Below are positions 1 to 14,776 of a stretch of DNA of 20,231 nucleotides, piece by piece. The position numbers and the translations under genes are program-made. The notes under the pieces are model-generated. The model saw nothing but the letters and a program-made list of their open reading frames with translations. It did no database searches and had not been told where the DNA came from. Numbering within the stretch: the first letter of the stretch is position 1; every line of letters starts with the position of its first letter. This stretch comes from Vulcanimicrobiia bacterium (lineage in GTDB: Bacteria; Eremiobacterota; Eremiobacteria; Baltobacterales; Baltobacteraceae), in NCBI GenBank assembly GCA_024281135.1, contig JAMXLG010000035.1, forward strand, positions 1 to 20,231, in the 5' to 3' direction.

Positions 1-1047
1 GGCATGACGATGTGGCGCGTTCCGATTTTCACTTGGGAGATCATCGCCACCGCGCTCCTGATTCTCATCGCGTTTCCCTCGCTCACCGCCGTCCTCTTGA
101 TGGTCCTCATCGACCGGCATCTCGGTGGGCATTTCTTCGATGCCGCGTACGGCGGCAATGCGATCCTTTATCAGCACTTGTTCTGGTTTTTCGGGCACCC
201 GGAAGTCTACGTCATGATCCTGCCGTACTTCGGGATCGTCACAGAAGTCATCGCGACGTTCTCGCATAAACCAGTATACGGCTACGTCGGACTCGTAATC
301 GCCGCGTTTGCTATTGCGGGCCTCTCGATCGGCGTTTGGGCTCACCACATGTTCACCACGGGCGCTGTGAGCAATCCGTTCTTCGCCGGAGTGTCGTTCC
401 TGATTGCCGTTCCGACCGGAGTAAAGTTCGTGAATTGGATCGGCACGATGTGGAAGGGCTCGCTCGAGTTTACGACAGCGATGCTGTTCTCGCTGGGCTT
501 TCTGTTCAATTTCTTGCTCGGCGGCATTACGGGCGTGATCGTCGCTTCGCCGCCGATCGATTATCAGGTGCACGGTTCCTATTTCATCGTGCATCACTTT
601 CACTACGTGCTCGGCGGCGGCAGCATGTTCGCGTTGTTCTCCGCACTCTTCTTTTGGTTCCCAAAGATTTTCGGCGTGCGGTTGAACGAGGCGCTCGGCA
701 AATGGTTCTTCTGGTTGATGTTCGTCGGATTCAACCTCACGTTCTTACCAATGGCGTTGATGGGTGTCGAGGGCATGGCACGCCGAGTGTACACCTATCC
801 TAACATCGAGCATCTCGCGCTACTCAACGGACTCGCGAGCGCAGGCGGAGCGATCATGGCAATCGCCGTGCTGCTCTTCTTCATCAATGTGTTCGTCTCG
901 GCGTTCGCGCGCATCCCCGTGCCGGCAAACCCCTGGGGCGGCTACTCGCTCGAATGGGCGACGCCCTCGCCGCCACCGGAGCATAACTTCGAAACGCTTC
1001 CGCCGATCACGAGCCGCCGTCCCGCATGGGATATGACACGCACGTGA
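1..1047 (+). CDS. ctaD: Cytochrome c oxidase subunit I, C-terminal part (5' end outside window)
   Basis: Catalytic subunit of the haem-copper terminal oxidase, which reduces O2 to water in the cytoplasmic membrane and pumps protons. The reading frame is open from base 1, so the gene starts upstream of the window. Numbering from the Met at base 4, the sequence shows FGHPEVY (CuB ligand H65, proton-channel E67, cross-link Tyr Y69), the CuB pair H114-H115 in AHHMFTTG, a K-channel VPTGVK (T138, K141), and HHFHYV carrying the haem ligands H198 and H200. The GHPEVY glutamate and the K-channel lysine place it in the A1 (mitochondrial-like) oxidases. Many hydrophobic helices follow, and a MARRVYTYP segment matches the usual family signature. 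Oddly, the motif before the haem ligands reads HGSY where HDTY is usual, so the Asp of the Mg/Mn site is replaced by Gly. The 3' end overlaps the next gene, indicating a cox operon. Confidence 0.96.
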   Translation, partial: GMTMWRVPIFTWEIIATALLILIAFPSLTAVLLMVLIDRHLGGHFFDAAYGGNAILYQHLFWFFGHPEVYVMILPYFGIVTEVIATFSHKPVYGYVGLVIAAFAIAGLSIGVWAHHMFTTGAVSNPFFAGVSFLIAVPTGVKFVNWIGTMWKGSLEFTTAMLFSLGFLFNFLLGGITGVIVASPPIDYQVHGSYFIVHHFHYVLGGGSMFALFSALFFWFPKIFGVRLNEALGKWFFWLMFVGFNLTFLPMALMGVEGMARRVYTYPNIEHLALLNGLASAGGAIMAIAVLLFFINVFVSAFARIPVPANPWGGYSLEWATPSPPPEHNFETLPPITSRRPAWDMTRT

Positions 1048-1430
1048 AAACCTTTGTCGGCCTCTTCTTGAGTTCAACAGCGTTCGGTGCCGCAATCGGC
1101 ATCGCGTATTTTTTCATCGCACATGAAGAAGCGACGGGTACGATGTTGCTCGGAATCATGACGGGAGCGCTCGCGTTCGCCGCGATGTACGCGGTCGTCG
1201 CGGAACGAAATGCGGACCTCGACGGGGATGTCGAAGAGCTGAAACCGCGTGAGACTGCAGGCGAAGACATGGGCATTTACACGTTGCACAGTACCTACCC
1301 GATTCTCGTTGCGCTTTCGGCGCTATTCTTTCTCTTGGGGCTCCTCTACTCGCCGTTGCTGGCGCTAATCTCAATCATCGCACTTCTTCTCTGCCTTTGG
1401 CGCCTCGGGGCGGAAAGCGCCCGAATCTAG
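1044..1430 (+). CDS. Small cytochrome c oxidase subunit IV-like (CtaF-type) membrane protein
   Basis: Probably a small structural subunit of the oxidase encoded just upstream. The protein is about 128 aa. It has two hydrophobic helices in the N-terminal half (roughly residues 1-22 and 32-55), a charged loop rich in Glu/Asp, a short segment GIYTLHSTYP, and two more hydrophobic helices at the C-terminus. This loop-plus-helices arrangement resembles the actinobacterial-type subunit IV (CtaF). I chose GTG at 1044 because it overlaps the subunit I stop codon as GTGA, the classic translational-coupling geometry. An ATG at 1026 in the same frame would add six residues (MGYDTH) and is possible. Assignment rests on topology and on position directly after subunit I, not on catalytic residues. 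Confidence 0.7.
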   Translation: MKTFVGLFLSSTAFGAAIGIAYFFIAHEEATGTMLLGIMTGALAFAAMYAVVAERNADLDGDVEELKPRETAGEDMGIYTLHSTYPILVALSALFFLLGLLYSPLLALISIIALLLCLWRLGAESARI

Positions 1431-1441
1431 CAACCTTCGGT

Positions 1442-1447
1442 TATAAT
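1442..1447 (+). promoter_or_regulatory. Consensus -10 box (TATAAT) directly before the redoxin start
   Basis: A perfect TATAAT ends six bases before the ATG at 1454, and no Shine-Dalgarno sequence is visible. Transcription from this box would start at about the A of the ATG, so a leaderless mRNA is likely. No convincing -35 hexamer is seen about 17 bases upstream. The box lies only 11 bases after the subunit IV stop, so the redoxin could be transcribed both from here and by readthrough. Confidence 0.5.
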
Positions 1448-1453
1448 GGCCCC

Positions 1454-1966
1454 ATGCAAACGAGGGTTCCGTCTGTCGTCGAAGCTTTGAATATTCCGCG
1501 GCCTGCGCTCGTCGTTTGGCTGCGCCACGTCGGTTGAACGTTTTTTCCTGAACCGTTCGCGCAGTTGCGCGAGCTCGAGGAAGAGTTCGAACGCGAAGGT
1601 ATTGCTGTGCGCTTCGTCGTGATCGGTGACTACGAAAAAGTGCGCCATTACTGCGATCAGTACGGCATGACTTCACGCTGCATTCCCGACCCATCGAAAG
1701 AAACGTATGCAGCGATGGGGTTCGGTAAGTACAACATGCTCAAGCTCTTCACCGACCCGGCGCTCAAAGTACGTCGTAAAGAGAATCATGCCGCCGGCTT
1801 TCACCAGAATTGGGCCGCGACGCGTTTGGGAGATAGCGCGCAGCTTCCCGGCGCGGCCATTATCGACCGTGACGGAAGATTAGCATGGCGCCACGCGGGC
1901 GAGCATCCCGGCGATCTTCCGCCGATGAACGAGATGCTCGAAATCGCTCGCGCCACCACGACCTAA
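1454..1966 (+). CDS. SelL/peroxiredoxin-like selenoprotein (TGA at 1535-1537 read as selenocysteine)
   Basis: Thioredoxin-fold redox protein of the AhpC/TSA, SelL-related group, 170 aa if the in-frame TGA is decoded. The frame from ATG 1454 reads MQTRVPSVVEALNIPRPALV, then VWLRHVG, then TGA (residue 28), then TFFPEPFAQLREL and onward to TAA at 1964. The TGA falls exactly where Cys-containing relatives have the catalytic Cys of RHxGCxFC. The protein continues in register on both sides, with later family features FVVIGDYEKVRHYCDQYG, PDPSKETYAAMGFG and LPGAAIIDRDGRLAWRH. A SECIS-like hairpin begins five bases after the TGA. The second Cys of the usual CxxC is Phe (U28-T-F-F31), so any resolving thiol must lie elsewhere, such as the Cys in RHYCDQ or SRCIPD, or come from a partner. 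Neighbours are oxidase genes upstream and a convergent DUF4239 gene that starts its stop codon at the next base. Alternatives are a nonsense-mutated pseudogene or a start at TTG 1565, but the latter would delete the active site. Confidence 0.82.
1542..1585 (+). promoter_or_regulatory. Putative bacterial SECIS element
   Basis: Two-part hairpin immediately downstream of the in-frame TGA (1535-1537). The outer stem pairs 1542-1549 with 1578-1585, eight pairs including two G-U. After a small internal loop, an inner stem pairs 1555-1562 with 1567-1574, eight pairs with one U-G, GC-rich near the tip. It is capped by the tetraloop AGUU (1563-1566). The loop begins 25 bases after the TGA and has G at its second position. 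Both agree with the known bacterial pattern in which SelB binds a hairpin 16-37 nt after UGA with a G among the first two loop bases. The pairing was worked out by hand, and no energy was computed. Confidence 0.72.
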
Positions 1967-2896
1967 CTACATCCGCATCGCCGGCTGCCAACCGGCTTGC
2001 ATTAAGTGAATGTGGTCGATCGCGGCAATCCAACGGCTCGGTTCAATACGCATATCGGTTCGGAACGGAAACTGCAACTCGAACAACAAGACAAGCGTCG
2101 ACGTAATGACGATCGCAACCGACGCCGTCATTAACACATGCACGCGCCGGTTCACGAGTCCGAAGATCCAGCAGAAGCAAATGATACAAGTCCCGCCGAG
2201 GGCCAACACGAGCCATTCAAACCCCGCGATCCCGCTGTCGTTCTCGGCGAGCCGGCGCTGACGCAGGTCATGTAATGCGCTCAGCTCTTGGATCGTTGCC
2301 GTCTGCGCGTTCGATTGCATCAGATTATTGGGTTTGAACAGTCCGACGGTCGACATCGCATCCATCACGATGTAGTCCGCTTTCCGCTCGTATCCGCCGG
2401 TGCGCATGGCGGTCCACTCTTCACCGGCCATGAGATCCGCGTAGTTGAGAATATCCGTGCGGACGCGGCGGCTTTGTTCGCGCGGCAGTCCCATCGTCAC
2501 ATGCCAGATATCCGCGGCTGCCGCCGATTCGAGTGCGACGAGTTGCCGCGCATCAGCAAAATGCTGCCACGCGACAACGGTGAGAAATCCGAGAAGCACG
2601 GAGTAGAGCGTGCCGGTAACCGCGATGATGAATCCGCCGACTTCATTGTGCTGCACGAAGTTGCGTTCGGGAAAGCGTTGATGCAGCAGCAATTGTCCTG
2701 CGCACGTGAGCGTGACGACGAGGGCGAGCGCAACCACCAGTATCAAGATCGCCGGCGCTTCAATCACGGCGTCTCGCCGCACGTTCCACAGTACGTCGAT
2801 CGCAAGACAACCCGCGAGTGAGGCTGCGACGAGAAACTTCGGCAGTTGCGAAGGTGCCGCAACCTTGAGGGGAATGACCGAGGCGCGAAGGATCAC
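1967..2896 (-). CDS. DUF4239-like multi-pass membrane protein
   Basis: Integral membrane protein of unknown function, 309 aa from the chosen GTG start. Hydrophobic segments are visible at about residues 20-37, 47-71 and 88-110, with two more near the C-terminus (around FEWLVLALGGTCIICFCW and VLMTASVAIVITSTLVLLFE). The block NEVGGFIIAVTGTLYSVLLG, followed by a W..F..A....ALE pattern, matches what I know of DUF4239 (bestrophin-like) proteins. The central soluble part is charged. The GTG at 2896 overlaps the stop of a 39-aa upstream ORF as GTGA. An in-frame GTG at 2956 would add 20 residues but lacks a ribosome site. The stop codon (1967-1969) abuts the stop of the convergent redoxin with no bases between. 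Confidence 0.7.
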   Translation of the reverse strand: MILRASVIPLKVAAPSQLPKFLVAASLAGCLAIDVLWNVRRDAVIEAPAILILVVALALVVTLTCAGQLLLHQRFPERNFVQHNEVGGFIIAVTGTLYSVLLGFLTVVAWQHFADARQLVALESAAAADIWHVTMGLPREQSRRVRTDILNYADLMAGEEWTAMRTGGYERKADYIVMDAMSTVGLFKPNNLMQSNAQTATIQELSALHDLRQRRLAENDSGIAGFEWLVLALGGTCIICFCWIFGLVNRRVHVLMTASVAIVITSTLVLLFELQFPFRTDMRIEPSRWIAAIDHIHLMQAGWQPAMRM

Positions 2897-3012
2897 AGCT
2901 TCGGCCCCCAGCCGGAGAAGGGCTGCGAATCCGCACGACGCGGACGGATGATACACGCTTGACGATCGTCGTTGGAAATGATGAGCGAAACGATTTTCGG
3001 GCGGGCAAGCAC
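2893..3012 (-). CDS. Possible 39-aa leader ORF coupled to the DUF4239 gene
   Basis: A short frame starts at GTG 3010-3012 and ends in TGA at 2893-2895. The start is preceded by AAAGGA with a seven-base spacer, the best ribosome site upstream of the membrane-protein gene. The stop overlaps the downstream GTG as GTGA, the geometry of translational coupling. The peptide begins VLARPKIVSLIISNDDRQAC and is basic in its second half (IIRPRRADSQPFSGW). I recognise no family. It may be a regulatory leader peptide, a small protein, or only a chance frame carrying the ribosome site. Confidence 0.35.
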   Translation of the reverse strand: MLARPKIVSLIISNDDRQACIIRPRRADSQPFSGWGPKL

Positions 3013-3110
3013 GGAGGTATCCTTTCGTGTTTAGGAGATGGCCACATCGGCCTCACCAATCATGCCGTTGCGCCGCGACCGCGAACACCGATATCCGCAT
3101 AAGATAGCCG

Positions 3111-3116
3111 TATAAT
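3111..3116 (+). promoter_or_regulatory. Consensus -10 box (TATAAT) before the XRE-NTPase gene
   Basis: A perfect TATAAT lies 11 bases before the ATG at 3128. Initiation about seven bases downstream would give a 5' leader of only about five bases, too short to keep the GAGG at 3118-3121 as a full ribosome site. No good -35 hexamer is visible. The stretch from 3013 to 3127 otherwise holds the divergent upstream region of the minus-strand ORFs, with no further gene seen. Confidence 0.45.
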
Positions 3117-3127
3117 TGAGGTTGGCT

Positions 3128-5554
3128 ATGCCAGCATCTACGAAGAGCCGTTCGGAATTCGGCACGCTGCTGCGGCAGTATCGCGTTGAGGCGGGACTCT
3201 CGCAAGAAAACCTCGCCGAGCGAGCGTCCATGAGCGTCGACGGAATCAGCGCACTCGAACGAGGAACCAACCAAGCGCCGCAACGCGAAACGCTCGCGCT
3301 GCTCGTACGAGCGCTCGGCCTCGACGATGACCGTCAGCGCACGCTGGAGTCGGTCGCCGTTCGCACATCTCGTCCCCGCCGCCGCGCGATACTCGTTGCG
3401 CACCCCCAAAACTTGCCGAAAATTGCGACTTGCCTCTATGGGCGCGAACGCGATATCGAAGCGATACAGGGTCTTGTCGCGTCGGCACAATTGGTAACGC
3501 TCACCGGTGCCGGTGGCGTCGGCAAAACGCGCCTCGCACTCGCGGCCGCGCAGTCGCTGCTTCCAACGTTCACTGACGGCGTTTGGTTCGCCGATTTTGC
3601 CCCAATTGACGACGAGCAGCTCATTCCGGCGGTGATTGCACGAATCTTCAACCTCAGCGAATCTCTCGATTGTTCGGTTCTCGATGCGCTCGCTCGCGTG
3701 CTGCACGATAAGCATACGTTGCTCGTTCTCGACAACTGCGAGCACTTCGCAAAGCGGATCAAAGAGCTCGCCGAGCGCATACTGAGCGCGAGTAACCACG
3801 TGCACATGCTCGCTACGAGCCGCCAACCGCTGCGAGTTGACGGCGAACGCATGTATCGCGTCGCGCCGCTCGAGCGCGATGCAGCGTTCGCGTTGTGCGT
3901 CGAGCGCGCACAACACGTCTCCGATACGTTCACGCTTTCGAACGAAAACCGCGAAGCCGTCGAACGAATCGTGCACAGGCTCGACGGCATTCCGCTCGCC
4001 ATCGAGCTCGCAGCCGCGCGCCTGCGTGTATTGACGCCGGTCGAGCTCGAAGAGCGGCTTTCGGAACGGTTTCGCGTACTCGCCGATCCGTCAAAAGGGG
4101 TGCTGCCGCGCCATCAAACGATGCGCGCGACACTCGATTGGAGTTACGAATCTCTGGAGCCGCTAGAACAACTCCTTTTCCGCCGGCTTGCGGTCTTTCC
4201 GGCGAGTTTTTCTCTCGATGCGGTAAACCGCGTCTGTACGGACGAGCGGATCGACGAATGGAACGTCATCGATGCGCTTGGATCGCTTGTTGATAAATCT
4301 TTGGTGACGCGCACCGTGGCGGGCGGCGCGCAGCGGTACAGGCTTCTCGAGAACATGCGCGCATACGCGAATGAAAAGGCTGCCGCGCAAGGGCCGAGCG
4401 ACTTGTTTCACGATCGTCACGCAGCATACTATGCCGCGCTCGCCGTGCGAGCCGAATCGGACCGCCGCCACGAAACGTCCACGGCCGCGTGGGCGCACGC
4501 GCTGGAGCCGGAGCTCGAGAATTTTCGCAGCGCGCTGCATTGGACGGTCGACGCGAGTCATGATTTCCCACTCGGCGCGCGGATGCTTTCGGCGCTGTAC
4601 TCGTTCTGGATGTTCGAGGGCCTTGCCATGGAAAGCGTGCGACGAACGCGGACAGCGCTCGAGGCCCGGGATAAACTTCCACCGGCCGCACTCGCGGCGA
4701 TGTTTCTGCTGCTTGCGAGGCTCTATCACGACTTTCCGATGACGTCGCAGCAGATGCTCGACGCCGCCTCACGAGCAGTCGCGTTATACGAAACGCTGGA
4801 TGAGGAGGGCGGCGCGGCGGCCTCGCTGCGCGAACTCGGCATCGCTCAAATGCGGCTGGGCTTGCTCGAAGAATCGCACGCATCGCTGCAGCGCGCACTC
4901 GAACTCGCCCACGCGGCCGGGGACGTTGAACTCGGCGGCCGCGTATCGGCGAGTCTCGCGTTTCTTCTGCGAGCTCAAGGGAAACCGCGCGAAGCGCGCT
5001 CAGAAATGCTGGAGGTTTTGAAAACCGTTCACGATAGCGGCGACGAACGGCTCGTGACGATTACCACGATGACCATAGGCGAGTTGGACTTCGAAATCGG
5101 AGACATCGGAGCAGCCGTCGAGCGTGCAAAAGCGATTCTCGCCAACCACGAAACGATGCGCAAAAACGCAGACTTGCGAGCAACCGAACAGGCCAATCTC
5201 GCAGCTTATCTGTTTGCTCTTGGGCGGCGCGATGAAGCACGCGCGACGGCGCTCGATGCGCTTGCGCACTCCAGATACCCGGCGATTCCGTTGCAACACT
5301 TCGCGGCAATCACCGCCATCGACGATCCGGTGCGCGCCGCCAAGTTGCTCGGCTACGTCGAGCGCGCGCACGAGGAGGCCGCGTTCACCAAAGAAACGCC
5401 GGAGCATTACACTTACGAGCGTCTCCTCGACGCCGTCGAAACCTTGCTCACACCCACCGAGGTCGAAGGCTACCGACGCGCCGGCTCGGCAATGACTGAA
5501 GATCAGGCGCGCAGGCTCGCTCTCGGAGGTACACATGCTCGACGTCATCCTTAA
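3128..5554 (+). CDS. XRE-family regulator with NB-ARC/AfsR-like NTPase and TPR domains
   Basis: Large cytoplasmic signal-transducing regulator of 808 aa. Residues 8-65 form an XRE helix-turn-helix (FGTLLRQYRVEAGLSQENLA, then SVDGISALERG). A STAND-type NTPase follows, with Walker A GAGGVGKT at 127-134, Walker B LLVLDN at 198-203, a sensor-like MLATSRQPL around 227-235, and the GIPLA motif at 287-291. The remaining roughly 400 residues are Ala-rich helical repeats that read as TPRs. The family usually senses a ligand or protein through the repeats and switches DNA binding through the NTPase, but the signal is unknown here. I chose ATG 3128, which has GAGG six bases upstream, over an in-frame TTG at 3116 that lies inside the -10 box. 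The 3' end overlaps the cupin gene by 20 bases, so the two are co-translated and may share a function. Confidence 0.88.
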   Translation: MPASTKSRSEFGTLLRQYRVEAGLSQENLAERASMSVDGISALERGTNQAPQRETLALLVRALGLDDDRQRTLESVAVRTSRPRRRAILVAHPQNLPKIATCLYGRERDIEAIQGLVASAQLVTLTGAGGVGKTRLALAAAQSLLPTFTDGVWFADFAPIDDEQLIPAVIARIFNLSESLDCSVLDALARVLHDKHTLLVLDNCEHFAKRIKELAERILSASNHVHMLATSRQPLRVDGERMYRVAPLERDAAFALCVERAQHVSDTFTLSNENREAVERIVHRLDGIPLAIELAAARLRVLTPVELEERLSERFRVLADPSKGVLPRHQTMRATLDWSYESLEPLEQLLFRRLAVFPASFSLDAVNRVCTDERIDEWNVIDALGSLVDKSLVTRTVAGGAQRYRLLENMRAYANEKAAAQGPSDLFHDRHAAYYAALAVRAESDRRHETSTAAWAHALEPELENFRSALHWTVDASHDFPLGARMLSALYSFWMFEGLAMESVRRTRTALEARDKLPPAALAAMFLLLARLYHDFPMTSQQMLDAASRAVALYETLDEEGGAAASLRELGIAQMRLGLLEESHASLQRALELAHAAGDVELGGRVSASLAFLLRAQGKPREARSEMLEVLKTVHDSGDERLVTITTMTIGELDFEIGDIGAAVERAKAILANHETMRKNADLRATEQANLAAYLFALGRRDEARATALDALAHSRYPAIPLQHFAAITAIDDPVRAAKLLGYVERAHEEAAFTKETPEHYTYERLLDAVETLLTPTEVEGYRRAGSAMTEDQARRLALGGTHARRHP

Positions 5555-5891
5555 GCGCTTCGATGAACCCGATGAAGTGCGCGAATTTCCCAAAGGCAAG
5601 TTCGAAGTCGTCACCGTCGGTGGCATGACGATCGGGCGCGCAACCTACGATCCCGGTTGGATCTGGTCGGAACACGTCGGCGCCGCGCTCGGTAAGGCGA
5701 GCTGCGACGTCGAGCACGTCGGTCTGGTCGTCTCAGGCTGCGCAACCGCTGAAATGGACGACGGTCGCGTCATCGAGATGAAGCCCGGCGACCTCTTCTA
5801 CATCGCACCGGGCCACAACAGCCGCGTGGTTGGCCACGAACCGTACGTCTCAATCCACTTCCAAGGCGTAACTGCTTACGCTTCCAAATAG
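5535..5891 (+). CDS. Small cupin-domain protein
   Basis: Single-domain cupin of 118 aa, probably cytoplasmic. The two cupin motifs are visible: motif 1 around residues 44-70 (WSEHVG, then VEHVGLVVSG) and motif 2 around 83-98 (KPGDLFYIAPGHNS). H47, H61 and H94 are candidate metal ligands. The enzyme or sensor role is unknown; proteins of this shape are often annotated only as cupin. The start is supported by a strong GGAGGT with a four-base spacer before ATG 5535. It overlaps the end of the XRE-NTPase gene by 20 bases, so it is likely translated from the same mRNA and could act as its ligand sensor. The last 16 bases overlap the 3' end of the convergent hydrolase gene. Confidence 0.85.
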   Translation: MLDVILKRFDEPDEVREFPKGKFEVVTVGGMTIGRATYDPGWIWSEHVGAALGKASCDVEHVGLVVSGCATAEMDDGRVIEMKPGDLFYIAPGHNSRVVGHEPYVSIHFQGVTAYASK

Positions 5892-6733
5892 GCTTTCATA
5901 CAGTACACGCTGCCGCCGGATTTCATAAACTCCCGCGTGTGCACCGGAACAACCGCGAACCCGCGTGAAGTAAGCGCGGCAGCCGTCTCGTCCGCACCTT
6001 CTTGAATCAACACGGTTCGGCCGAAGCACGCCGTTGCATTGCACGCAAAAAACTCCGTCGCTTCACGTTCGCTCACTTCGATCAGATCGGAAAAGCCGTC
6101 GCGCAGCGCCTCGATACTGCTTGCGCTAAAGGCCGGCGCATACATCAGAGCCGTACGTTCATCGATCGCGCAAAAACACGTATCGAGATGATAGAACCTC
6201 TCGGTCGCCAGTTCTAAGGTCACGACCCGCGCGTCAAACGCTTCTGCGATCGCCGCATGGGCGCGCGCGTCCGTACGCGGTCCCGCGCCCATCCAGAGCA
6301 ACGCGCGCCCTGGATGCCACACGGCGTCGCCGCCGCCTTCGAACCGCGCAATCGTCGAATCAAGCTCGACGACGCGATAGCCGTGCGAAGCGTACCATGC
6401 AGCATGCGCGCCGACTTCTCGCTGACGCGAGGGATAGCGCATCCGACTGAGTACGCAGATCCGTTCACCTCGCGCATTGCGCCCGCAGATCGCGGGGTTC
6501 GCCGTAAAGACCATGTCCTCACAACCCGGAACCGGATCGAGCACCTCGACGCGCATGCCTGCCGCTTCGAACCCAGCGCGTAACGCACTCCACTCTTGTG
6601 CTGCTTCCGCACCATCGATCCGTCCGACGTTCTTTTCCATGAATGGATTCTTGACGTCGATCACTGCGAAGAAGTCGGGCGGGGACATCAGCACACCCGT
6701 TGGGAGCGGCCGAGGGATGATATTTTGTCCCAT
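5876..6733 (-). CDS. Dimethylargininase/amidinotransferase-fold hydrolase (DDAH-like)
   Basis: Member of the guanidino-group-modifying superfamily, 285 aa, probably cytosolic. It likely hydrolyses arginine or a methylarginine-type substrate through a covalent Cys intermediate. Visible motifs are FTAN (76-79), FEGGGDAVW (131-139), GPRTDARAHA (151-160), FYHLDTCF (180-187, catalytic H182) and the C-terminal SGGSVYCMK with catalytic C278. Length and motif order fit DDAH-like enzymes rather than full-length ADI. The substrate could be dimethylarginine, arginine or another guanidine. ATG 6733 adds a 13-residue lead (MGQNII...) before the usual start of the fold at VLMSPPDFF. No ribosome site is seen, and the start codon lies inside an inverted repeat with a TATTTA box five bases upstream, suggesting a leaderless message. 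It is divergent from the dipeptide epimerase gene. Confidence 0.85.
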   Translation of the reverse strand: MGQNIIPRPLPTGVLMSPPDFFAVIDVKNPFMEKNVGRIDGAEAAQEWSALRAGFEAAGMRVEVLDPVPGCEDMVFTANPAICGRNARGERICVLSRMRYPSRQREVGAHAAWYASHGYRVVELDSTIARFEGGGDAVWHPGRALLWMGAGPRTDARAHAAIAEAFDARVVTLELATERFYHLDTCFCAIDERTALMYAPAFSASSIEALRDGFSDLIEVSEREATEFFACNATACFGRTVLIQEGADETAAALTSRGFAVVPVHTREFMKSGGSVYCMKAYLEA

Positions 6734-6749
6734 ACGCCTAAATATTGCT
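6716..6749. promoter_or_regulatory. Shared 34-bp operator/promoter element, copy A
   Basis: Divergent regulatory region between the DDAH-like gene (-) and the epimerase gene (+). It matches copy B at 10455-10488 in 28 of 34 positions. Core: TATTTTGT, 8-base spacer, CCTAAATA, an imperfect inverted repeat (6721-6744). The spacer contains the minus-strand ATG (6731-6733). TATTTT and TATTTA can act as -10 boxes on the plus and minus strand respectively. The epimerase ATG at 6773 has GAAAGGAAG about 11 bases upstream. Confidence 0.6.
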
Positions 6750-6772
6750 TCCGAAAGGAAGAACCCCCTGTA

Positions 6773-7789
6773 ATGGAAGTTTCCGTTCGCACCGAGACAT
6801 GGGCATTTCGCTATCCCTTCCGCATCACCGGATACGTGTGGACCAGTTGTGAGGTCGTCGTCGCCGAAGTCACGGACGACCGTCAACGCGGACGAGGTGA
6901 AGCCCTGGGCGTGTACTACCACGATGAAACCGCCGCGAGCATAAGCGCGCAAATCATTGCCGCCGCGCAACGCGCGGACACCGTTGCCGGGCTCGCCCAA
7001 GTCGCGGCGTCGCTGCCGCCCGGCGGCGCAAAAAACGCGCTTGACTGCGCGCTGTGGGAACTCCGCGCACGGCAAGAAGCCGTGCCGGTTTGGCGACTCG
7101 CGCAATTACCGTCCGCTCCGCGTCCGGTCCAAACGACGTGCACGGTCGGCGCGGCGGATCCGGAAGACATGGCCTCGCGCGCCCGCGAGTTTGCCACCGC
7201 GACGGCACTCAAACTGAAACTGACCGGTGACGGCCGCGACGCCGAACGCGTCCGCGCTGTTCGCGACGTGCGTCCCGACGTGTGGCTGGGCGTCGACGGC
7301 AATCAAGGACTCACGCGCGCTTCGCTCGAGACGCTGCTTCCTACGTTCGTAGAATGTGGCGTGCAACTCGTCGAACAGCCGCTCCCGCTCACGCGCGATG
7401 CGGATCTCGACGGTCTCAAGTCACCGATTCCCATCGCCGCCGATGAAAGCGTGCAAACGCTGAACGATATCGAGGGACTCGTCGGACGCTTCGACACCAT
7501 CAACATTAAACTCGACAAGTGCGGCGGACTCACCGATGCGCTGCGCATGCAAGCCCGAGCCCGTGAACTGGGCCTCGGCGTGATGGTCGGGTGCATGGGA
7601 GGCACGTCGCTCTCGATGGCTCCGGCGTTTATCGTCGCGCAGCGTTGCGATATTACCGATCTCGACGGACCGCTTCTTCTCGCTTCCGACCGGTCGCCGT
7701 CCGCGGTCTACCGCAACGGCTGCATTGACTGCCCCGAAGATGTGTGGGGCTGGGTACCCTCACTCACCACCCAAGACGTGGAGCGTTGA
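6773..7789 (+). CDS. Dipeptide epimerase (enolase superfamily, L-Ala-D/L-Glu epimerase-like)
   Basis: Enolase-superfamily enzyme of 338 aa that should racemise the C-terminal residue of a dipeptide by 1,1-proton transfer; the family type enzyme is L-Ala-D/L-Glu epimerase of murein-peptide recycling. An N-terminal capping domain (about 1-115) precedes the barrel. Visible catalytic elements are the K-x-K pair K147/K149 in ALKLKL, metal ligands D175 (GVDGNQ), E201 (VEQP) and D224 (AADES), and the opposite-face base K246 in NIKLDKCGG. The GCMGGTSLSMAPA segment fits the substrate-specificity loop region. Residue specificity cannot be read from sequence, and other epimerases of this group act on varied dipeptides. 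ATG 6773 has a GAAAGGAAG ribosome site. Its stop is one base from the next start, so the two genes form an operon. Confidence 0.9.
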   Translation: MEVSVRTETWAFRYPFRITGYVWTSCEVVVAEVTDDRQRGRGEALGVYYHDETAASISAQIIAAAQRADTVAGLAQVAASLPPGGAKNALDCALWELRARQEAVPVWRLAQLPSAPRPVQTTCTVGAADPEDMASRAREFATATALKLKLTGDGRDAERVRAVRDVRPDVWLGVDGNQGLTRASLETLLPTFVECGVQLVEQPLPLTRDADLDGLKSPIPIAADESVQTLNDIEGLVGRFDTINIKLDKCGGLTDALRMQARARELGLGVMVGCMGGTSLSMAPAFIVAQRCDITDLDGPLLLASDRSPSAVYRNGCIDCPEDVWGWVPSLTTQDVER

Positions 7790-7790
7790 T

Positions 7791-8894
7791 ATGATCGGAC
7801 TTTCATTCATACTCGCCGCCGCGCTGAACGCAACGCAAACATCGGCGATCAGCTCCATCGTTCAGGAAGCGATGGCGAAGCAGCATTTGACGGGCGTCGA
7901 GGTCGGCGTCGGGCGTAACGGTACGCTCTTATATTCGGCAGGCTACGGCTTGCGTAACCGCTCGGCGAACCTTCCGGTAACAAACGACACCGTCTTCGCG
8001 ATTGGTTCGATCACCAAGCAATTCACCGCCGCCGGCGTCATGCTGCTCGTGCAACGCGGCCTCGTCTCGCTCGATGCGCCCCTCTCACGCTATCTCCCGG
8101 ACATCCCGCACGCACGCGAGATTACCGTACGCGAGCTGCTCGATCAGACAACCGGCCTCCACGATTATCTCGAAGACAAACAGCTCTTCGGATCGCTCGT
8201 CGACGCAAGTATAAAGACGCACCCCATTTCATATTACGTCGAAATCGGAGCAAAACAGCCGCTGCAATTCAAGCCCGGAACGAAGTGGGCGTACAGCAAC
8301 ACGAACTACGCGATCCTCGGAATGCTAACCGCAAAGATGAGCGGCAAACCGTACGAATCGTACATCCAATCGACGATTCTCGTTCCGCACGATCTCAGTG
8401 CCACGGAATTCATGGCGTACGCCCCGCCGTCGGGAACGAATGTTTCCGAAGGGTACGATTACAAGCAAAACCATTTCGTCACGCTCCCGCGCTACAACAT
8501 GTCATGGGCGAACTCCGCCGGAGCGCTCGCCTCAAACGCGCAGAACCTGGTTCGCTGGGACGGAGCGTTCTTTTCAGACAAGGTGCTCGACGCCGCCGGC
8601 GTACACTCGGCGACGACGCCGCCCCCCGGCATCCAAATGCTCTCCACGAAAAAGGACGCCCGCAATAATCTCGCTCTCGGGTACGCATTCGGCTGGGTTC
8701 AAGGCACCGACGAAGGCCGTCGCCTCATCTGGCACAACGGCGGAACCCTCGGCGCAAGAGCAATGAATCTCGTCTTCCCAGCTGACGGCCTCGAAATCGT
8801 CGTCCTCACCAATCAAACAACAGCCGATCCCGAATCAATTGCCCTGCGCATCGCCCGAGTGCTGTATTCGCCAAGTTCCAACGTTCCACACTGA
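7791..8894 (+). CDS. Serine hydrolase, beta-lactamase/penicillin-binding fold (class C-like)
   Basis: SxxK-type serine hydrolase of 367 aa, related to class C beta-lactamases, D-aminopeptidases and EstB-like esterases. The catalytic motifs are S73-I-T-K76, Y168-S-N170 and H315-N-G-G318, the last replacing the KTG triad as is common in the esterase/peptidase branch. A short hydrophobic N-terminus (MIGLSFILAAALNA) may be a weak signal peptide, so export is likely but not certain. ATG 7791 follows the epimerase stop by one base. Pairing with a dipeptide epimerase argues for peptide or D-amino-acid peptide hydrolysis rather than antibiotic resistance. The last 60 bases overlap the 3' end of the convergent binding-protein gene. 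Confidence 0.88.
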   Translation: MIGLSFILAAALNATQTSAISSIVQEAMAKQHLTGVEVGVGRNGTLLYSAGYGLRNRSANLPVTNDTVFAIGSITKQFTAAGVMLLVQRGLVSLDAPLSRYLPDIPHAREITVRELLDQTTGLHDYLEDKQLFGSLVDASIKTHPISYYVEIGAKQPLQFKPGTKWAYSNTNYAILGMLTAKMSGKPYESYIQSTILVPHDLSATEFMAYAPPSGTNVSEGYDYKQNHFVTLPRYNMSWANSAGALASNAQNLVRWDGAFFSDKVLDAAGVHSATTPPPGIQMLSTKKDARNNLALGYAFGWVQGTDEGRRLIWHNGGTLGARAMNLVFPADGLEIVVLTNQTTADPESIALRIARVLYSPSSNVPH

Positions 8895-10472
8895 CGACGT
8901 CGGCGCTGGATCAACGCCGATAAGCGAATCGATGTGAACCGCGACGTGCCCTTGCTGCCAAAGTGCAATCAAGGGCACTTCTTCTGCAAGGCGCCGTTGG
9001 ATCACGATCGACTGCCGCCGTCGTTCGTTCCAATCATAGCTCGCGACCGACGCAGCATCCGCTGCACTCACTTGTGAATCGCAGAAGCGCGAAATATTGA
9101 ACCCGTTCGGCGGCATCTGGTCGCAACCGAAGAACCAGCTCAAATCCGGATCGGTCGGCCCAGTCAGTTGCACGAACGACATCTCGAATTTGCCTCCGAG
9201 CAGCGGACCGCCGATATGAGCCGGCGCCGTGAAAATCTGTGTCGAATACCCACGCATCGCGAGTCTCACGCCGAGCGTTCGCATCGCTTGCTGCAACAAA
9301 ACGCCGAAGTCCGTGCCCTCCGCCTCTTGCAGATCGTAGGCGTAGTCGAGTTCCAACGGCACGCCGTCACGCGAGCGCACGCCGCCCGGCCCGTCGCGCC
9401 AGCCTGCCTCATCCAGTAACGCCTTCGCGCGCGTAACGTCGAAGGGCAATTGCTTCACCGACGGATCGTACGTCGCGCCGAAGAGACCTGCAGGAGCGTT
9501 CCTAGTTGACTCCGTGCCCCTCGATGCATCGTGAACGATGCGCGCATAGTCAATACCTTGCGCAAGCGCGCGCCGCACTCGCACGTCACTGAGGGGCGCA
9601 CTCGCCACGTTGAAAATAAGCAATGCCGCTCCGCCGGCGTCGACTTTCGACGCTGTCACGCCCGGAATCGGATGAAAGTCGTGCGCGTATTGGGCTTGCG
9701 TCACAAACGCTGAGTCCAGTTCGCCCGTGCGTACTTGCTCGTAGAGGGTCGACACGATCGGCACGGACTTCATCGTCAAATGCGCGATCGCGGGTGCGCC
9801 GCGGAAGTACAGCGGGTTTGCGGCAAAACGGATGTAATCGCCGTGCGACCACTCCTCGACGCGATAAGGTCCGCTGCCGACCGGCATCGTGTTAAACGCG
9901 GCGTGATTGACGTCGCGCTCGTGTACTAACACGTGCTTCGGCAGCACCGGGTAATTGTTGTCTGGTGCAAAAAAATTCGAGAAAAGCGGCGAGAACCGGC
10001 GCTTCAACCGTACGCGAACGGTGTACAGATCGGGGGCACTCACGCTCTCAATTTCGTCATAATCAGTACGCGATGGAACGTTGATCGACGGATTCATGAC
10101 CAGTCCGTAGCTGTACACGACGTCGGCTGCGGTGAGCGGCTGGCCGTCTTGCCATTTTACGCCGTGACGCAGATGGTATGTCACCGTAAGTCCGTCGGCC
10201 GAGACGCCGCCATTGCGCCGGCTCGGAATCGCCTCCGCCAAGTCAGGCTGCAACCGGCCGTTCGAATCGATCGTCAGGAGATAGGAAAAAATGACCGGCC
10301 CGATCGTCGCCGAGATCGTACCCTCTTCCAGCAGTGGATTGAGCGTATGCGGTTCAAAGGGTATGCCCATCGTCAAGGACGTGGGGTCGGAACGATGCGC
10401 GCCCTTGGTGCAGCTGGTGAGTATCAGGGCGGAGGCGAAAACGACTGCGCAAAAGATGATATTTTGGCGCAT
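8835..10472 (-). CDS. Oligopeptide ABC transporter substrate-binding lipoprotein (SBP_bac_5)
   Basis: Extracytoplasmic solute-binding protein of family 5 (DppA/OppA type), 545 aa, capturing peptides for ABC import. The N-terminus is a lipoprotein signal: MRQNII, a hydrophobic stretch, then LILTSC with the lipidated Cys at residue 21. The mature part shows family features such as GIPFEPHTLNPLLEEGT, YHLRHGVKWQDGQPLTAADV, VGSGPYRVEEW and LAQGIDYARIV. ATG 10472 is chosen because it begins the signal peptide; the frame remains open upstream but encodes no sensible protein. No ribosome site is present, and TATTTT lies five bases before the ATG, again consistent with a leaderless mRNA. No permease or ATPase gene is in the window, so partners must be elsewhere. 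The gene is divergent from the M81 peptidase, and the two share an operator-like inverted repeat. Confidence 0.92.
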   Translation of the reverse strand: MRQNIIFCAVVFASALILTSCTKGAHRSDPTSLTMGIPFEPHTLNPLLEEGTISATIGPVIFSYLLTIDSNGRLQPDLAEAIPSRRNGGVSADGLTVTYHLRHGVKWQDGQPLTAADVVYSYGLVMNPSINVPSRTDYDEIESVSAPDLYTVRVRLKRRFSPLFSNFFAPDNNYPVLPKHVLVHERDVNHAAFNTMPVGSGPYRVEEWSHGDYIRFAANPLYFRGAPAIAHLTMKSVPIVSTLYEQVRTGELDSAFVTQAQYAHDFHPIPGVTASKVDAGGAALLIFNVASAPLSDVRVRRALAQGIDYARIVHDASRGTESTRNAPAGLFGATYDPSVKQLPFDVTRAKALLDEAGWRDGPGGVRSRDGVPLELDYAYDLQEAEGTDFGVLLQQAMRTLGVRLAMRGYSTQIFTAPAHIGGPLLGGKFEMSFVQLTGPTDPDLSWFFGCDQMPPNGFNISRFCDSQVSAADAASVASYDWNERRRQSIVIQRRLAEEVPLIALWQQGHVAVHIDSLIGVDPAPTSSVWNVGTWRIQHSGDAQGN

Positions 10473-10488
10473 AGACCAAAATACTGCT
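10455..10488. promoter_or_regulatory. Shared 34-bp operator/promoter element, copy B (perfect inverted repeat)
   Basis: Lies between the binding-lipoprotein gene (-) and the M81 peptidase gene (+). Core: TATTTTGG, 8-base spacer, CCAAAATA, a perfect 8-8-8 inverted repeat (10460-10483), with the minus-strand ATG (10470-10472) in the spacer. It matches copy A in 28 of 34 positions. The half-sites also supply TATTTT boxes on both strands. It is either a repressor site, a bidirectional promoter, or both. Confidence 0.65.
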
Positions 10489-10523
10489 CGAACGAAGCCC
10501 GGTCCTACCGCGGGAGAGTCCGT

Positions 10524-11987
10524 TTGAGAATTTTCACCGCCGCCCTCGTTACCGAGACCAATACGTTCTCGCCCATTCCAACCGGTCGGGCGTCCTTCGC
10601 AATGAATCGGATCAGCGACGACGAGCCCTTCCCCGATTTCGCGTCCTTGTTTGTCTGGCGTGATATGGCGGCCGCCGATGGACACGAGGTGATCGAAAGC
10701 GTCGCTGCGATTGCAGAACCCGCCGGCAAAACGGTGCGGGCCGTTTATGAAGAGTTACGCGATCGCTTACTACACGATCTGCGTGCTGCCATGCCGGTCG
10801 ACGTCGTCCTCCTCTATCTTCACGGTGCCATGGTCGCCGAAGGCTACGACGATTGCGAAGGCGACGTACTCGAGCGTGTTCGCGCAATCGCCGCTAGCGC
10901 GACCGTCGGCGCGGAACTGGATTTACACGCACACCTCACCGACGCCATGTGCGAGGCGGCCAACGTCATCGTCGCCTATAAAGAATATCCGCACGTCGAT
11001 ATTGTCGATCGTGCGGTCGACCTCTATCGCCTCTGCACGCGCGCAGCCGCAGGACTCATCGCGCCCGCGAGTTCGCTCTACGACTGCCGCGCCAACGGAC
11101 TCTTTCCGACGACGCGCGAGCCGATGCGCAGCTTTGTCGACGACATGCGCGCCCGCGAGGGAGACGACATTCTTTCACTCAGCTTCGTACACGGATTTCC
11201 GTACGGCGACGTTCCCGGCGCGGGAGCAAAAATGCTCGCAATTGCTGACCGCGACGGTGACCTCGCCTCGCGCACCGCGGAAGAATTCGGCAAACGATTC
11301 ACGAGCATACGCGAAGAAGCGGCGTTGCAATCGATGCCGTTTGAAGACGCGATCGATCTCGCACTCTCCGATGCCGTAGGCGCAACGGTGATCGCCGACG
11401 TGGCCGACAATGCCGGCGGCGGCGCACCCGGAGACAGTACCTTCGTGCTCCAATATCTTTTGGATCGCGCAGCGAAACATGTCGTTTCCGGAACGTACTA
11501 CGATCCGATAGCCGTCGAGATGTGTTTCGAAGCGGGTACGGGCGCGACATTAGCGCTCCGAATCGGAGGCAAACTTGGCCCGGCTTCCGGCATGCCGGTC
11601 GACGTCGACGTCACGGTTCGCGCGTTGAGCGAGCGCCACGTTCAAGACGCGATGGATGACTCGGGCGTCGTGCCGTTAGGACGCAGCGCGTGGGTGCACG
11701 CGCGCGGAATCGACCTCGTGCTGGTCTCGATCCGGTCGCAGGTGTTCGGGCCGACCGCGTTCACGAATCTCGGCATCGACCTGCGACGAGCGAAAATCAT
11801 CATCGTAAAATCCACGCACCATTTTTACGGAAAGTTTGCGCCGCTCGCATCGCGCGTGCTCTACGCCGATAGCCCCGGTGCATTGCGTACCGATTTTGCA
11901 GCGATTCCCTACCAAAAGCGCGATTTAGACTATTGGCCGCGCACCGAGAGGACTTCGCACGTCGCGCACCTTAATCGCGCAAAATGA
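10524..11987 (+). CDS. M81 family metallopeptidase (MlrC-like)
   Basis: Zinc metallopeptidase of family M81, 487 aa; the best-known member, MlrC (microcystinase C), cleaves small linear peptides from microcystin. The sequence carries the N-terminal signature ETNTFSP (11-17), a metal-site segment ELDLHAHLTD (131-140), AYKEYPHVD (151-159), DVADNAGGGAPGD (292-304) and KSTHHFYGKFAPLA (429-442). Length is normal for the family. No signal peptide is seen, so it should act in the cytosol on imported peptides. I chose TTG 10524 because it gives MRIFTAAL, the usual family beginning, with GGGAG about six to seven bases upstream; the frame stays open further upstream without a plausible protein. It overlaps the XRE-cupin gene as ATGA. 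Confidence 0.93.
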   Translation: MRIFTAALVTETNTFSPIPTGRASFAMNRISDDEPFPDFASLFVWRDMAAADGHEVIESVAAIAEPAGKTVRAVYEELRDRLLHDLRAAMPVDVVLLYLHGAMVAEGYDDCEGDVLERVRAIAASATVGAELDLHAHLTDAMCEAANVIVAYKEYPHVDIVDRAVDLYRLCTRAAAGLIAPASSLYDCRANGLFPTTREPMRSFVDDMRAREGDDILSLSFVHGFPYGDVPGAGAKMLAIADRDGDLASRTAEEFGKRFTSIREEAALQSMPFEDAIDLALSDAVGATVIADVADNAGGGAPGDSTFVLQYLLDRAAKHVVSGTYYDPIAVEMCFEAGTGATLALRIGGKLGPASGMPVDVDVTVRALSERHVQDAMDDSGVVPLGRSAWVHARGIDLVLVSIRSQVFGPTAFTNLGIDLRRAKIIIVKSTHHFYGKFAPLASRVLYADSPGALRTDFAAIPYQKRDLDYWPRTERTSHVAHLNRAK

Positions 11988-12535
11988 AAGATGTAGCGGT
12001 CCCCGACGTCGGCACGATTCTCAAGCGTCTGCGCGAGCGCAATCGCGTTACCGTTCGCGACGTGGCCGACGCCACAGGGCTCTCGGCATCGTTCATCCGC
12101 GCGCTCGAACGCGGCGAAACCGATATCTCTCTCGGCCGCGCCGCCCGTTTGGCAAAATTCTTCGATTACGATCTCGGCTCGTTCTTGGGATTCAGCGCGC
12201 AGAGTTCGCGCCCGACGTTCATGGGTCCGGAAACGCGGAAGAAAGTCAATCGCGGACGCGGTATCGACTACGAGGCGATTCACCTGCCGGGCGTCGACCT
12301 CGACTTTATCGCGCTGAATCTCGCACCGCGCACCAAGTTCAAAAACGAGCTCGCGCACGAAGGTATCGACGTCATCTATGTGATCGACGGCGAGATTATC
12401 GTGGTGGTCAACGGCATCGACTATCCGATGACCGCGGGCGAGTGCTGTGTCTTTGCCGCCGGCTATCCGCACTCGGTGCGCAACGACTCCGGCCGCCAGG
12501 CGCGGGCCATTTCTCTGACCACCGGCCGCATGTAA
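11984..12535 (+). CDS. XRE-family transcriptional regulator with C-terminal cupin sensor
   Basis: DNA-binding regulator of 183 aa. Residues 10-64 form a helix-turn-helix (GTILKRLRERNRVTVRDVAD, then GLSASFIRALERGETD). The C-terminal half is a cupin barrel (about 105-178, YVIDGEIIVVVNGIDYPMTA, then AGYPHSVRND) that should bind a small ligand or metal. Regulators of this shape commonly control amino-acid, polyamine or peptide catabolism next to their own gene. The start codon overlaps the M81 stop as ATGA, so translation is coupled. It is the most obvious local candidate for binding the shared inverted repeats at 6716-6749 and 10455-10488, but that is inference. Confidence 0.9.
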   Translation: MKDVAVPDVGTILKRLRERNRVTVRDVADATGLSASFIRALERGETDISLGRAARLAKFFDYDLGSFLGFSAQSSRPTFMGPETRKKVNRGRGIDYEAIHLPGVDLDFIALNLAPRTKFKNELAHEGIDVIYVIDGEIIVVVNGIDYPMTAGECCVFAAGYPHSVRNDSGRQARAISLTTGRM

Positions 12536-12554
12536 ACTCCAGCGCCTCGCCAAT

Positions 12555-12575
12555 ATATCGCTCTATGAGCGATAT
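12555..12575. promoter_or_regulatory. Perfect 8-5-8 inverted repeat around the start codon of the second serine hydrolase
   Basis: ATATCGCT, loop CTATG, AGCGATAT. The ATG (12565-12567) sits in the loop. It could be a DNA operator or an mRNA hairpin that displays or hides the start codon. TATATC five bases before the ATG could also be a -10 box, and no ribosome site is present. The half-site sequence differs from the two shared 34-bp elements. Confidence 0.5.
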
Positions 12576-14310
12576 TTCGTCTGCATTGGCCGGCTACCGC
12601 GTTCCCGGCCTCGGTTACGCTCTTCTCATCGACGGTCGCGAAGCGGACTGCCGGGGATTCGGCGTACGCAACATCGAGCGCAACGATCCCGTCGACGCCG
12701 ATACGCTTTTTGCCATCGGTTCTGTTTCAAAGTCGTTCACCAGCGCGGCGATCGCTATGCTCGTCGACGAAGGTAAGATCGATTGGGACACACGCGTGAT
12801 CGATCGCCTGCCGTCGTTCCGCATGTTCGATCCGTACGTCACGCGTGAATTGACGGTGCGCGATTTACTCGTTCATCGCAGTGGTCTCGCGCGCGGAGAT
12901 TTCATGTGGTATAAGAGCGCGTACACGATCGACGAAGTGTTGGCCCGCGCGCAGCATCTCGAGCCGAGCTGGGGCTTCCGCACGGCCTTCGGCTATCAAA
13001 ACATTATGTACGTCGCGGCCGGCGAGTTGATCCGCGCCGCGAGCGGCTTGTCTTGGGATGAGTTCATCAAGCAGCGGATCCTCGAGCCGCTCGCCATGAA
13101 CCGCAGCCACGTTCATCCGCAGTACATCTCCGATATGTCGAACGTCGCCAAACCGCACGCCGAGCTCGAACCTGGAACGGTTCGCACGATCCCTCATGAC
13201 TACGGCACGAACTCCAACGCTGCGGGCTCGATTTATTCGAGCGCCCGCGACATGCTCCGGTGGCTCCGGTTCAATCTCGGCGATGGGACGATCGATGGAA
13301 AGCGGCTGATGACGTCCGGATCGATGCACGCGCTGCATACGCCGCAGATGCTGATCGCGTATGCCTCCCCGTGGAGCGAGATGTTTCCCGATGCATCGTT
13401 TTTGAGCTACGGATATGGGTGGTTTCTCTTCTCCTACCGCGGTGAAGCGGTGATCACGCACAGCGGAAACATCGACGGAATGACGGCTGTCGCATGCGTG
13501 GTGCCGCGTATCGGCTTCGGATTCACGGCTCTAGCAAACGCCGACGTCAGCGCGCTGCCGCATGCGCTCCTCTATCGCGCGCTCGACGATGTGCTCGGGG
13601 GTGGTTCGACGAATTGGCTCGTGCACTTCAAAGAACAGCGCGACGAAGCCCAAGAGCGCCTTGAATTCATGCGTCGCGAGCGCGAAAGTGCACGCGTCGA
13701 CGAGACCATGGCGTCGCGCCCACTCTCGGCGTACACCGGCACTTACGACGACGCATTTTACGGCAGAGCTACCGTAAGCAGCAACGGCGACGGACTCGCG
13801 TTGCAATTCGTCGGGCTCAACGGGCGCCTCGAGCACGAACACTTCGACGTCTTCGTCCTTCGTCCCGAGAATGAACTCTTCGTCAAGTATCAGCCGACGG
13901 TGCGCTTCGATCGGAACGAATTCGGCGAACCCTCAGCACTGACGGTCAATATTCTCGGCGCGCTCGAACTGCACCTCAAGCGCAACGAGAACGCAGAGCA
14001 AGCCGAAGCAAAACCCGCCGACCGAGCGCCGATGCTCGGAAACTACACCTCGCGGTCGTTTGGTACCATCGCAATCGAAGAACTTGGTGACACGATGAAG
14101 GTCACGCTTCCGGGCGCTCTCGCGGGCGCTCAAACGAGCGAGAAAGTGTTCACGCTCGTTCCGCTCGCACCCGATTCTGCCGCGATCGAAGGAACGGGGC
14201 TGATCTTTCGCTTCAGCGGATTGAAGGACGGACGCTTCGCCGAACTCGACGTATGCGTGCCGCATCAGATGCCAATGCGCTTCACGACACTTCACGCGCA
14301 CGCGAAATAA
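12565..14310 (+). CDS. Serine hydrolase, beta-lactamase fold with C-terminal DUF3471-like domains
   Basis: SxxK serine hydrolase of 581 aa. The catalytic domain (about 1-345) shows S53-V-S-K56, Y144-Q-N146 and H299-S-G301. After a charged helical linker (about 355-385), a beta-rich domain [19 protein letters not shown] resembles DUF3471, and a further similar unit begins near [17 protein letters not shown]. The layout is typical of the MlrB/EstB/Pab87-like branch, which cleaves peptides or esters rather than beta-lactams. No signal peptide is visible, so a cytosolic location fits an intracellular peptidase. It follows the XRE-cupin gene by 29 bases and belongs with the M81 gene, giving an MlrC-like plus MlrB-like pair. 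ATG 12565 lies inside a perfect inverted repeat. The frame is open further upstream, but that part is antisense-like to nothing and overlaps the XRE-cupin gene. Confidence 0.88.
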
Positions 14311-14330
14311 CCGCGTGCTACAACCGAGTC

Positions 14331-14774
14331 GTGCAGCAGCCGACTCGCCGGGAAGCCCTCGGAGAGATTCTTGCGTTCGGAACGACTCTTGCCGCCGCGC
14401 CGCGGCTGCTTGCTGCTTCGCCCGACGAGAGGAATGCCACCGTGATCGTGTGCTTGATCCGCTACCAAATCGATCCGTTTCAACTCGATGCCTTCACGCA
14501 ATACGCGACAAACTGGGCGAAGAGCATTCCGCGCTGCGGCGGGCACTTGATCGGCTACTTTCTCCCGCACGAAGGCACGAACGACGTCGCGTGGGGAATC
14601 ATCGGGTTCGATTCGCTCGAAAGTTACGAGAAGTATAAGGCACGGCTCAAAGCCGACCCGGAGGGGACGGCGAATTTCCAATTCGCCCAGTCGAAGCGGT
14701 TCATACTCCGTGAAGAACGTAACTTCGTCCGCCTCGTACCCGGCACATTTGACCTACCCTCGCTGTTAAAGTAG
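14331..14774 (+). CDS. NIPSNAP-family protein, possibly with a Tat-type signal
   Basis: Small protein of 147 aa with a NIPSNAP (dimeric alpha/beta barrel) domain from about residue 38: [38 protein letters not shown], and a conserved tail [11 protein letters not shown]. Function of the family is unclear; members often sit beside catabolic or oxidoreductase genes. Starting at GTG 14331 gives an N-terminal extension with twin arginines (PTRREAL) and a hydrophobic run ending LLAAS, compatible with Tat export. An internal GTG at 14442 would give a cytosolic protein like most relatives. TACAAC lies six bases before GTG 14331, similar to other leaderless-looking starts here. It follows the serine hydrolase by 20 bases and precedes the acylase by two, so it is probably in the same operon. 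Confidence 0.78.
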
Positions 14775-14776
14775 AT

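Follow-up and report, generated by a model that had tools for sequence, protein, structure and literature searches.

SelL carries two selenocysteine (Sec) residues in a UxxU motif. It has been named in the literature as a peroxiredoxin (Prx)-like protein (PMC2398784). A further described relative is the peroxiredoxin-like (AhpC/TSA) selenoprotein with a UxxS motif, which is listed under cd02970 (PMC13188914) and under pfam13911 (PMC9312934), while classical Prx proteins are described by the motif PxxxTxxU/C (PMC13188914). The 2026 inventory gives 119 prokaryotic selenoprotein families or subfamilies (PMC13188914), and different Sec motifs within one domain are counted as different subfamilies (PMC13188914, PMC9312934). 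In the model for the bacterial SECIS element (bSECIS), a loop of 3-9 nt with G in the first two loop positions caps an upper stem of 4-16 bp, the distance from UGA to loop is 16-37 nt and the minimum free energy is -7.5 kcal/mol or lower (PMC13188914). The family comparison in this study was drawn from the available parts of PMC13188914, PMC9312934, PMC2398784 and PMC12013277.

Translation of the window (the whole stretch of 20,231 nucleotides analysed here) revealed a plus-strand gene (1454..1966) running from ATG at 1454 to TAA at 1964-1966 with only one in-frame TGA, at codon 28 (1535..1537). Based on its frame and profile matches, it is listed as a Sec-containing peroxiredoxin-like gene (AhpC-TSA_2/SelL-related) of 170 amino acids with Sec as residue 28. 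The earlier note had described an ATG frame passing through one TGA with family-like sequence on both sides, and re-translation found the same frame (LRHVG-U-TFFPEPF around the TGA). Its placing of the TGA at the catalytic-cysteine column of relatives also held in the homologue alignment planned beforehand, where relatives show either TGA or Cys, the latter in G128, P0019, P0039, P0124 and P0158. The features by which a bacterial selenoprotein is recognized, namely an in-frame UGA, family-like coding on both sides and Cys in homologues, were all found at this locus. Gene 1454-1966 is very probably a genuine selenocysteine gene. The reading preferred in this study, with a probability of about 0.94, is a 170-amino-acid peroxiredoxin-like oxidoreductase with Sec28, its UGA being decoded via the hairpin at 1555-1574 and SelB; both the Sec in the protein and the recruitment of SelB are what we infer from sequence. 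A TATAAT at window positions 1442-1447 ends 6 bases 5' of the ATG, as for a leaderless transcript, and none was seen by eye at the corresponding place in the nearest relative. Searches of the window with Rfam at gathering thresholds and with ARAGORN gave no match, nor did tblastn of the protein against 72,556 plasmid records.

Analysis of the protein family revealed a match to Pfam PF13911 (AhpC-TSA_2) of 56.6 bits, above the gathering cut-off of 27. The sole NCBIfam match was NF040769 (SelL-related redox protein) at 94.6 bits, short of its curated cut-off of 120. Each of the 16 sequences in alignment A6 matches NF040769 at E <= 0.001. The label SelL proposed beforehand is a loose one in view of the score under the cut-off, the single Sec and the phenylalanine at +3. 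The window protein is a Prx-like selenoprotein as SelL is, but it has one Sec in the sequence U28-T-F-F31, with neither U nor C at +3. The PF13911 domain and a single Sec are common to this protein and the UxxS selenoprotein, whereas serine occupies +3 there and phenylalanine here. Phenylalanine is the residue at +3 from Sec in the window and in 22 TGA loci of relatives, and cysteine is found in G136 and G139. Classical Prx proteins, including the 1-Cys peroxiredoxin AhpE (1xvw, 5id2), whose fold matches with TMq up to 0.61, differ by the PxxxTxxC/U motif, which is absent here, LRHVGU having no threonine at -3.

The structure model, built with Cys in place of Sec, has a pLDDT of 89.4 and a pTM of 0.88 and shows a thioredoxin/peroxiredoxin fold in which residue 28 comes after the first core strand (18-25) and before the helix 32-48. 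The best structural match in the PDB is human prostamide/PGF synthase (9us9, 9usa; TMq 0.65, E 1.7e-5), which is also the only sequence match in the PDB at E <= 1 (best E 5.5e-4); other peroxiredoxins and ResA-like proteins are among the further structural matches. Prostamide/PGF synthase has the same fold, and residue 28 aligns with its Cys44 and Phe31 with its Cys47. It differs in its Cys44/Cys47 pair, against U-x-x-F here, and identity over the structural alignment is 17%. Since the second cysteine of CxxC is Phe31 here, the resolving thiol may be Cys76 (codon TGC, 1679..1681, plus strand), which is a candidate for this role because it is kept in 158 of the 162 listed homologues; Cys67 is kept in 145/162. 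In the proposed mechanism the mRNA hairpin at 1555-1574 would recruit SelB carrying Sec-tRNA(Sec), so that the ribosome would read UGA 1535-1537 as Sec. The selenolate would then sit in the turn that leads from the first core strand into the first long helix, at the place of PGF synthase Cys44. The Sec enzyme would most likely reduce a peroxide or a disulfide, and the oxidised Sec would be resolved by a thiol, perhaps Cys76. Both a peroxidase-type activity and this part for Cys76 are proposals.

Folding of the hairpin region, also foreseen beforehand, gave -20.9 kcal/mol for the 44-mer at 1543-1586 (z -4.08), and none of 200 dinucleotide shuffles was as stable; for the longer piece 1532-1590 the z value was -2.95 and two of 200 shuffles were as stable. 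The conserved bacterial SECIS core (1555..1574, plus strand), identified by folding and conservation, is an 8-bp stem with arms GTTCGCGC (1555-1562) and GCGCGAGC (1567-1574) and the loop AGTT (AGUU in RNA) at 1563-1566. The hairpin begins 5 nt after the TGA, and the loop lies 25 nt from it, as the coordinates given in the earlier note had it. Set beside the bSECIS constraints in the available text of PMC13188914, the four-base AGUU loop, the 8-bp stem, the G at loop position 2, the distance of 25 nt and the -20.9 kcal/mol all lie within the ranges. The 44-nt two-stem hairpin (1543..1586, plus strand) that the earlier note had drawn is present and in the right place; folding and alignment showed its apical stem of 7-8 bp and its loop to be conserved, while its lower stem is not conserved and differs between relatives.

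A stricter fold control kept the protein and redrew synonymous codons, 1000 versions each, for seven sequences. Redraws at least as stable as the native hairpin numbered 51/1000 for the window, 97 for the nearest relative G001, 72 for G089, 54 for G088, 4 for G120 and 0 for G068, and 131/1000 for the Cys form G128. For five of the seven sequences, the window included, this synonymous-shuffle test is weak. Because 51 of 1000 redraws fold as well, the window's own fold energy is by itself weak evidence for the hairpin; the strong evidence is the hairpin's conservation.

A contig scan of genomes with the window protein as sole query found one locus (L001), in a Candidatus Eremiobacterota MAG (G001), with 81% protein identity and a TGA at the same codon. 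A total of 149 genomes of Candidatus Eremiobacterota, the phylum of this nearest relative, were then taken as the sample. A homologue was found in 24 of the 149 genomes, with 25 loci altogether, and 24 of the 25 loci (23 genomes) have one TGA at the site, the exception being G128. Additional TAG or TAA stops that seemed to lie inside the gene at five loci proved to be the genes' own ends, by translation for G065 and G070 and by alignment for G064, G068 and G071. TGA, flanking protein and hairpin recur at equal spacing in 22 other loci, and the counts over 23 sequences given below represent the window plus these 22 TGA loci, leaving out the distant G136 and G139. The latter two (L032 and L033) are distant TGA homologues from genomes of about 8 Mb, with U-x-x-C and a differently built GUU-loop hairpin.

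Comparison of the 23 sequences revealed almost no variation in codons +6 to +12 of the hairpin, even at silent positions. CCG at +6 is found in 20/23, CTC at +7 in 22/23 and GCG at +8 in 21/23; CAG at +9, TTG at +10 and GAG at +12 are each found in all 23, and codon +11 is CGC in 14 and CGT in nine. ACG at +1 is found in 20/23, and codons +2 to +5 are more variable. For codons +1 to +17 the synonymous-codon identity comes to 0.78, compared with 0.53 for the codons upstream and 0.55 for those downstream; the top six of 152 ten-codon windows by this measure all begin at +4 to +9. At the stem pair that varies, 22/23 sequences have G-C, G-U or A-U, and the nearest relative, G001, has a mismatch (U-C). 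Two-sided change was observed at one of 12 stem pairs; the covariation is scant, since there is so little variation in the stem. In the stem-pair alignment the row for G077 (L018) begins 3' of the TGA, which leaves one gap in four pairs.

The exception, G128, has Cys (TGC) at the Sec column and lacks the hairpin. Its codons +6 to +10 and +12 differ from the TGA forms (GAA, CTG and GAC at +9, +10 and +12), and its predicted fold is another one. The check for homologues with a sense codon and no hairpin found this Cys form, and the hairpin is kept where the TGA is kept. On the tree of the family either Cys or Sec may be the ancestral form: Cys needs three changes, good support is limited to seven of the 27 inner branches, and the tree brings long branches together.

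The genes selA, selB, selC and selD, to which the earlier note had pointed, were all found in the nearest relative G001, where selA (514.6 bits) adjoins selB (312.8 bits), a tRNA-Sec of 71 bits with anticodon UCA (ARAGORN) lies on the contig of selA/selB, and selD is present with a TGA in its own frame. That the window organism makes selenocysteine is suggested by these relatives. Among the 149 genomes, counted as matches over the family cut-off and with a strictly filtered tRNA search, selA was found in 121, selD in 118, selB in 113 and tRNA-Sec in 102; among the 23 TGA-form genomes the numbers are 23 for selA, 21 for selB, 19 for tRNA-Sec and 20 for selD. No match was found for tRNA-Sec under these filters in the TGA-carrying G062-G065, for selB in G082 and G127, or for selD in G063, G064 and G072. 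These missing matches may be gaps in the genomes, since the genomes come without completeness values. In G128, the genome with the Cys form, selA, selB and a partial selD were found, with no tRNA-Sec match. The occurrence of selA in 24/24 gene-bearing genomes versus 121/149 overall (hypergeometric 0.004) is given little weight because kinship is uncorrected.

Several side observations were made on these genes. A selD match with an in-frame TGA occurs at G001:C18:5390-6313, and many genomes in the phylum have one too, so that selenophosphate synthetase itself looks like a selenoprotein there. A selA match with one TGA inside is found at G135:C21:69523-70815. On G062:C130 the TGA gene (36094-36582), selB (38466-39497, opposite strand) and selA (39524-40846) all lie within 5 kb. 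G119, one contig of 3,508,363 bases, has selA, selB, selC and selD, and the Sec gene is without a match in it.

The earlier note had also expected standard gene calling to begin after the active site, and this is what was found. ORF calling under table 11 gives a plus-strand ORF of 133 amino acids at 1565..1966, which has its TTG start inside the SECIS loop/stem and lacks the active site. Two protein searches gave 162 distinct listed homologues (the best 120 of 225 and the best 120 of 421, the second search scoring only its 7998 best candidates). The starts of these were placed by protein alignment, with the DNA seen for a few, P0005 among them, and in 151/162 the start aligns with residue 38; where the DNA was seen (the window and 22 inspected loci), this residue is the TTG in the hairpin. 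Residue 28 is absent from 158/162, and the other four are full-length and all have Cys. The DNA of P0005 is identical to the L001 ORF, and there the TGA is the cause of the short call. P0035 (143 amino acids) begins with MTFF at roughly the Sec position, where it may have a sense or start codon instead of the TGA.

Other explanations of this locus were considered together. A single in-frame stop resembles a nonsense mutation, and a pseudogene or an error in sequencing the TGA would leave no full-length product; the recurrence of this TGA in 24 loci from 23 other genomes, the conserved hairpin and purifying selection on both sides of the TGA make this extremely improbable, and we reject it. Compared with L001, the window has 13 synonymous and 4 non-synonymous differences in codons 1-27, 1 and 4 in the 17 codons that follow the TGA, and 42 and 24 over the other 125 codons. 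The first two of these comparisons point to coding constraint 5' of the TGA and to an additional constraint on silent sites 3' of it. The same counts bear on the proposal that TTG 1565 is the true start of a 133-amino-acid protein which lacks the active-site segment and is not co-translated with the upstream frame. Gene calls in the source records begin at the TTG residue in the 151 listed homologues mentioned above and the TTG is invariant, but the pattern of change in codons 1-27 is that of coding sequence in this frame, and G128 together with four Cys homologues passes the site without a stop. The conservation of the TTG is explained by its position within the hairpin, and a start there is rejected as very unlikely. 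A genome-wide reassignment of TGA, for example to tryptophan, instead of local recoding would account for the toleration of an in-frame TGA in the Sec frame. Against it, relatives have Cys and not Trp at the site, the nearest relative has selB and a tRNA-Sec with a UCA anticodon, and Pfam matches (E <= 0.001) were obtained for 16/16 of the ORFs that were scanned in the window under table 11, so that its probability is very low and it too is rejected.

A different question is whether the Sec protein reduces peroxide, as against serving disulfide exchange, prostaglandin-synthase-like reduction or cytochrome oxidase. Such a role is possible, but we hold it to be somewhat improbable. It draws on prostamide/PGF synthase being the closest solved structure, on the ResA-type thiol-disulfide proteins among the structural matches and on the gene neighbourhood. 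The gene follows cox genes in the window, where ORF and Pfam analysis identified cytochrome c oxidase subunit I (1..1047, plus strand, cut by the window start) and subunit IV (1026..1430, plus strand) as its upstream neighbours; by eye, L001 has coxA and a small cox subunit upstream in the same order, and in G089 the Sec gene lies 2.4 kb from coxA. Weighing against this role, the protein has no CxxC partner, and no close coxA match was found within 5 kb of the gene in the other genomes searched, where several loci lie near contig ends. A conserved cytochrome oxidase operon was looked for and was not found beyond the window, L001/G001 and, loosely, G089.

Downstream of the Sec gene, L001 has cupin, enolase-superfamily and beta-lactamase-fold genes that resemble those of the window by eye, with other genes standing between some of these shared neighbours in the window. 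In window 1967-7105 the Sec gene and the cupin are separated by a minus-strand bestrophin-like gene and a gene for a large HTH/NB-ARC/TPR regulator, and a DDAH-like gene follows the cupin; the corresponding L001 8513-8943 has no room for bestrophin-like, HTH/NB-ARC/TPR or DDAH-like genes. Genes for enolase-superfamily, beta-lactamase-fold, family-5 solute-binding, M81/MlrC peptidase and penicillin amidase proteins occur together in window 6776-16981, which looks like a peptide-use locus if this pathway reading of the gene content is right.

Analysis of the window gene against the described families suggests a real selenoprotein of a known kind that would form a new Sec-motif (U-x-x-F) subfamily. 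The word UxxF is absent from the available text of PMC13188914, in which the nearest entry is cd02970 with UxxS. Eremiobacterota are frequent in oligotrophic environments and have an aerobic cultured member (PMC9758169). Searches for Eremiobacterota, Eremiobacter or WPS-2 together with selenocysteine or selenoprotein found no relevant literature, most subscription journals being outside the coverage and priority not being established, and words in 'selen-' are absent from the main texts of the Eremiobacterota papers searched. Use of Sec in this phylum was found to be unreported in the searchable literature.

Sec machinery is present in most of the phylum genomes examined, and the Cys form without a hairpin in G128 constitutes a natural control for SECIS requirements. 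Genome annotation easily misses selenoproteins; in this soil bacterium, and in most relatives examined, the UGA appears to hide the active-site part of a small antioxidant-type enzyme from annotation software. Since 158 of the 162 listed homologues lack the active-site residue, the chemistry of the family is unreadable from databases. We consider the chances about even that the Sec form is the rule in Eremiobacterota and environmental relatives and the Cys form rare, with a frozen SECIS core, a U-x-x-F motif resolved by the distant Cys76 and a family hidden as headless AhpC/TSA proteins. If this is true, databases would conceal a whole family of soil selenoenzymes under the label of AhpC/TSA proteins some 133 amino acids long.
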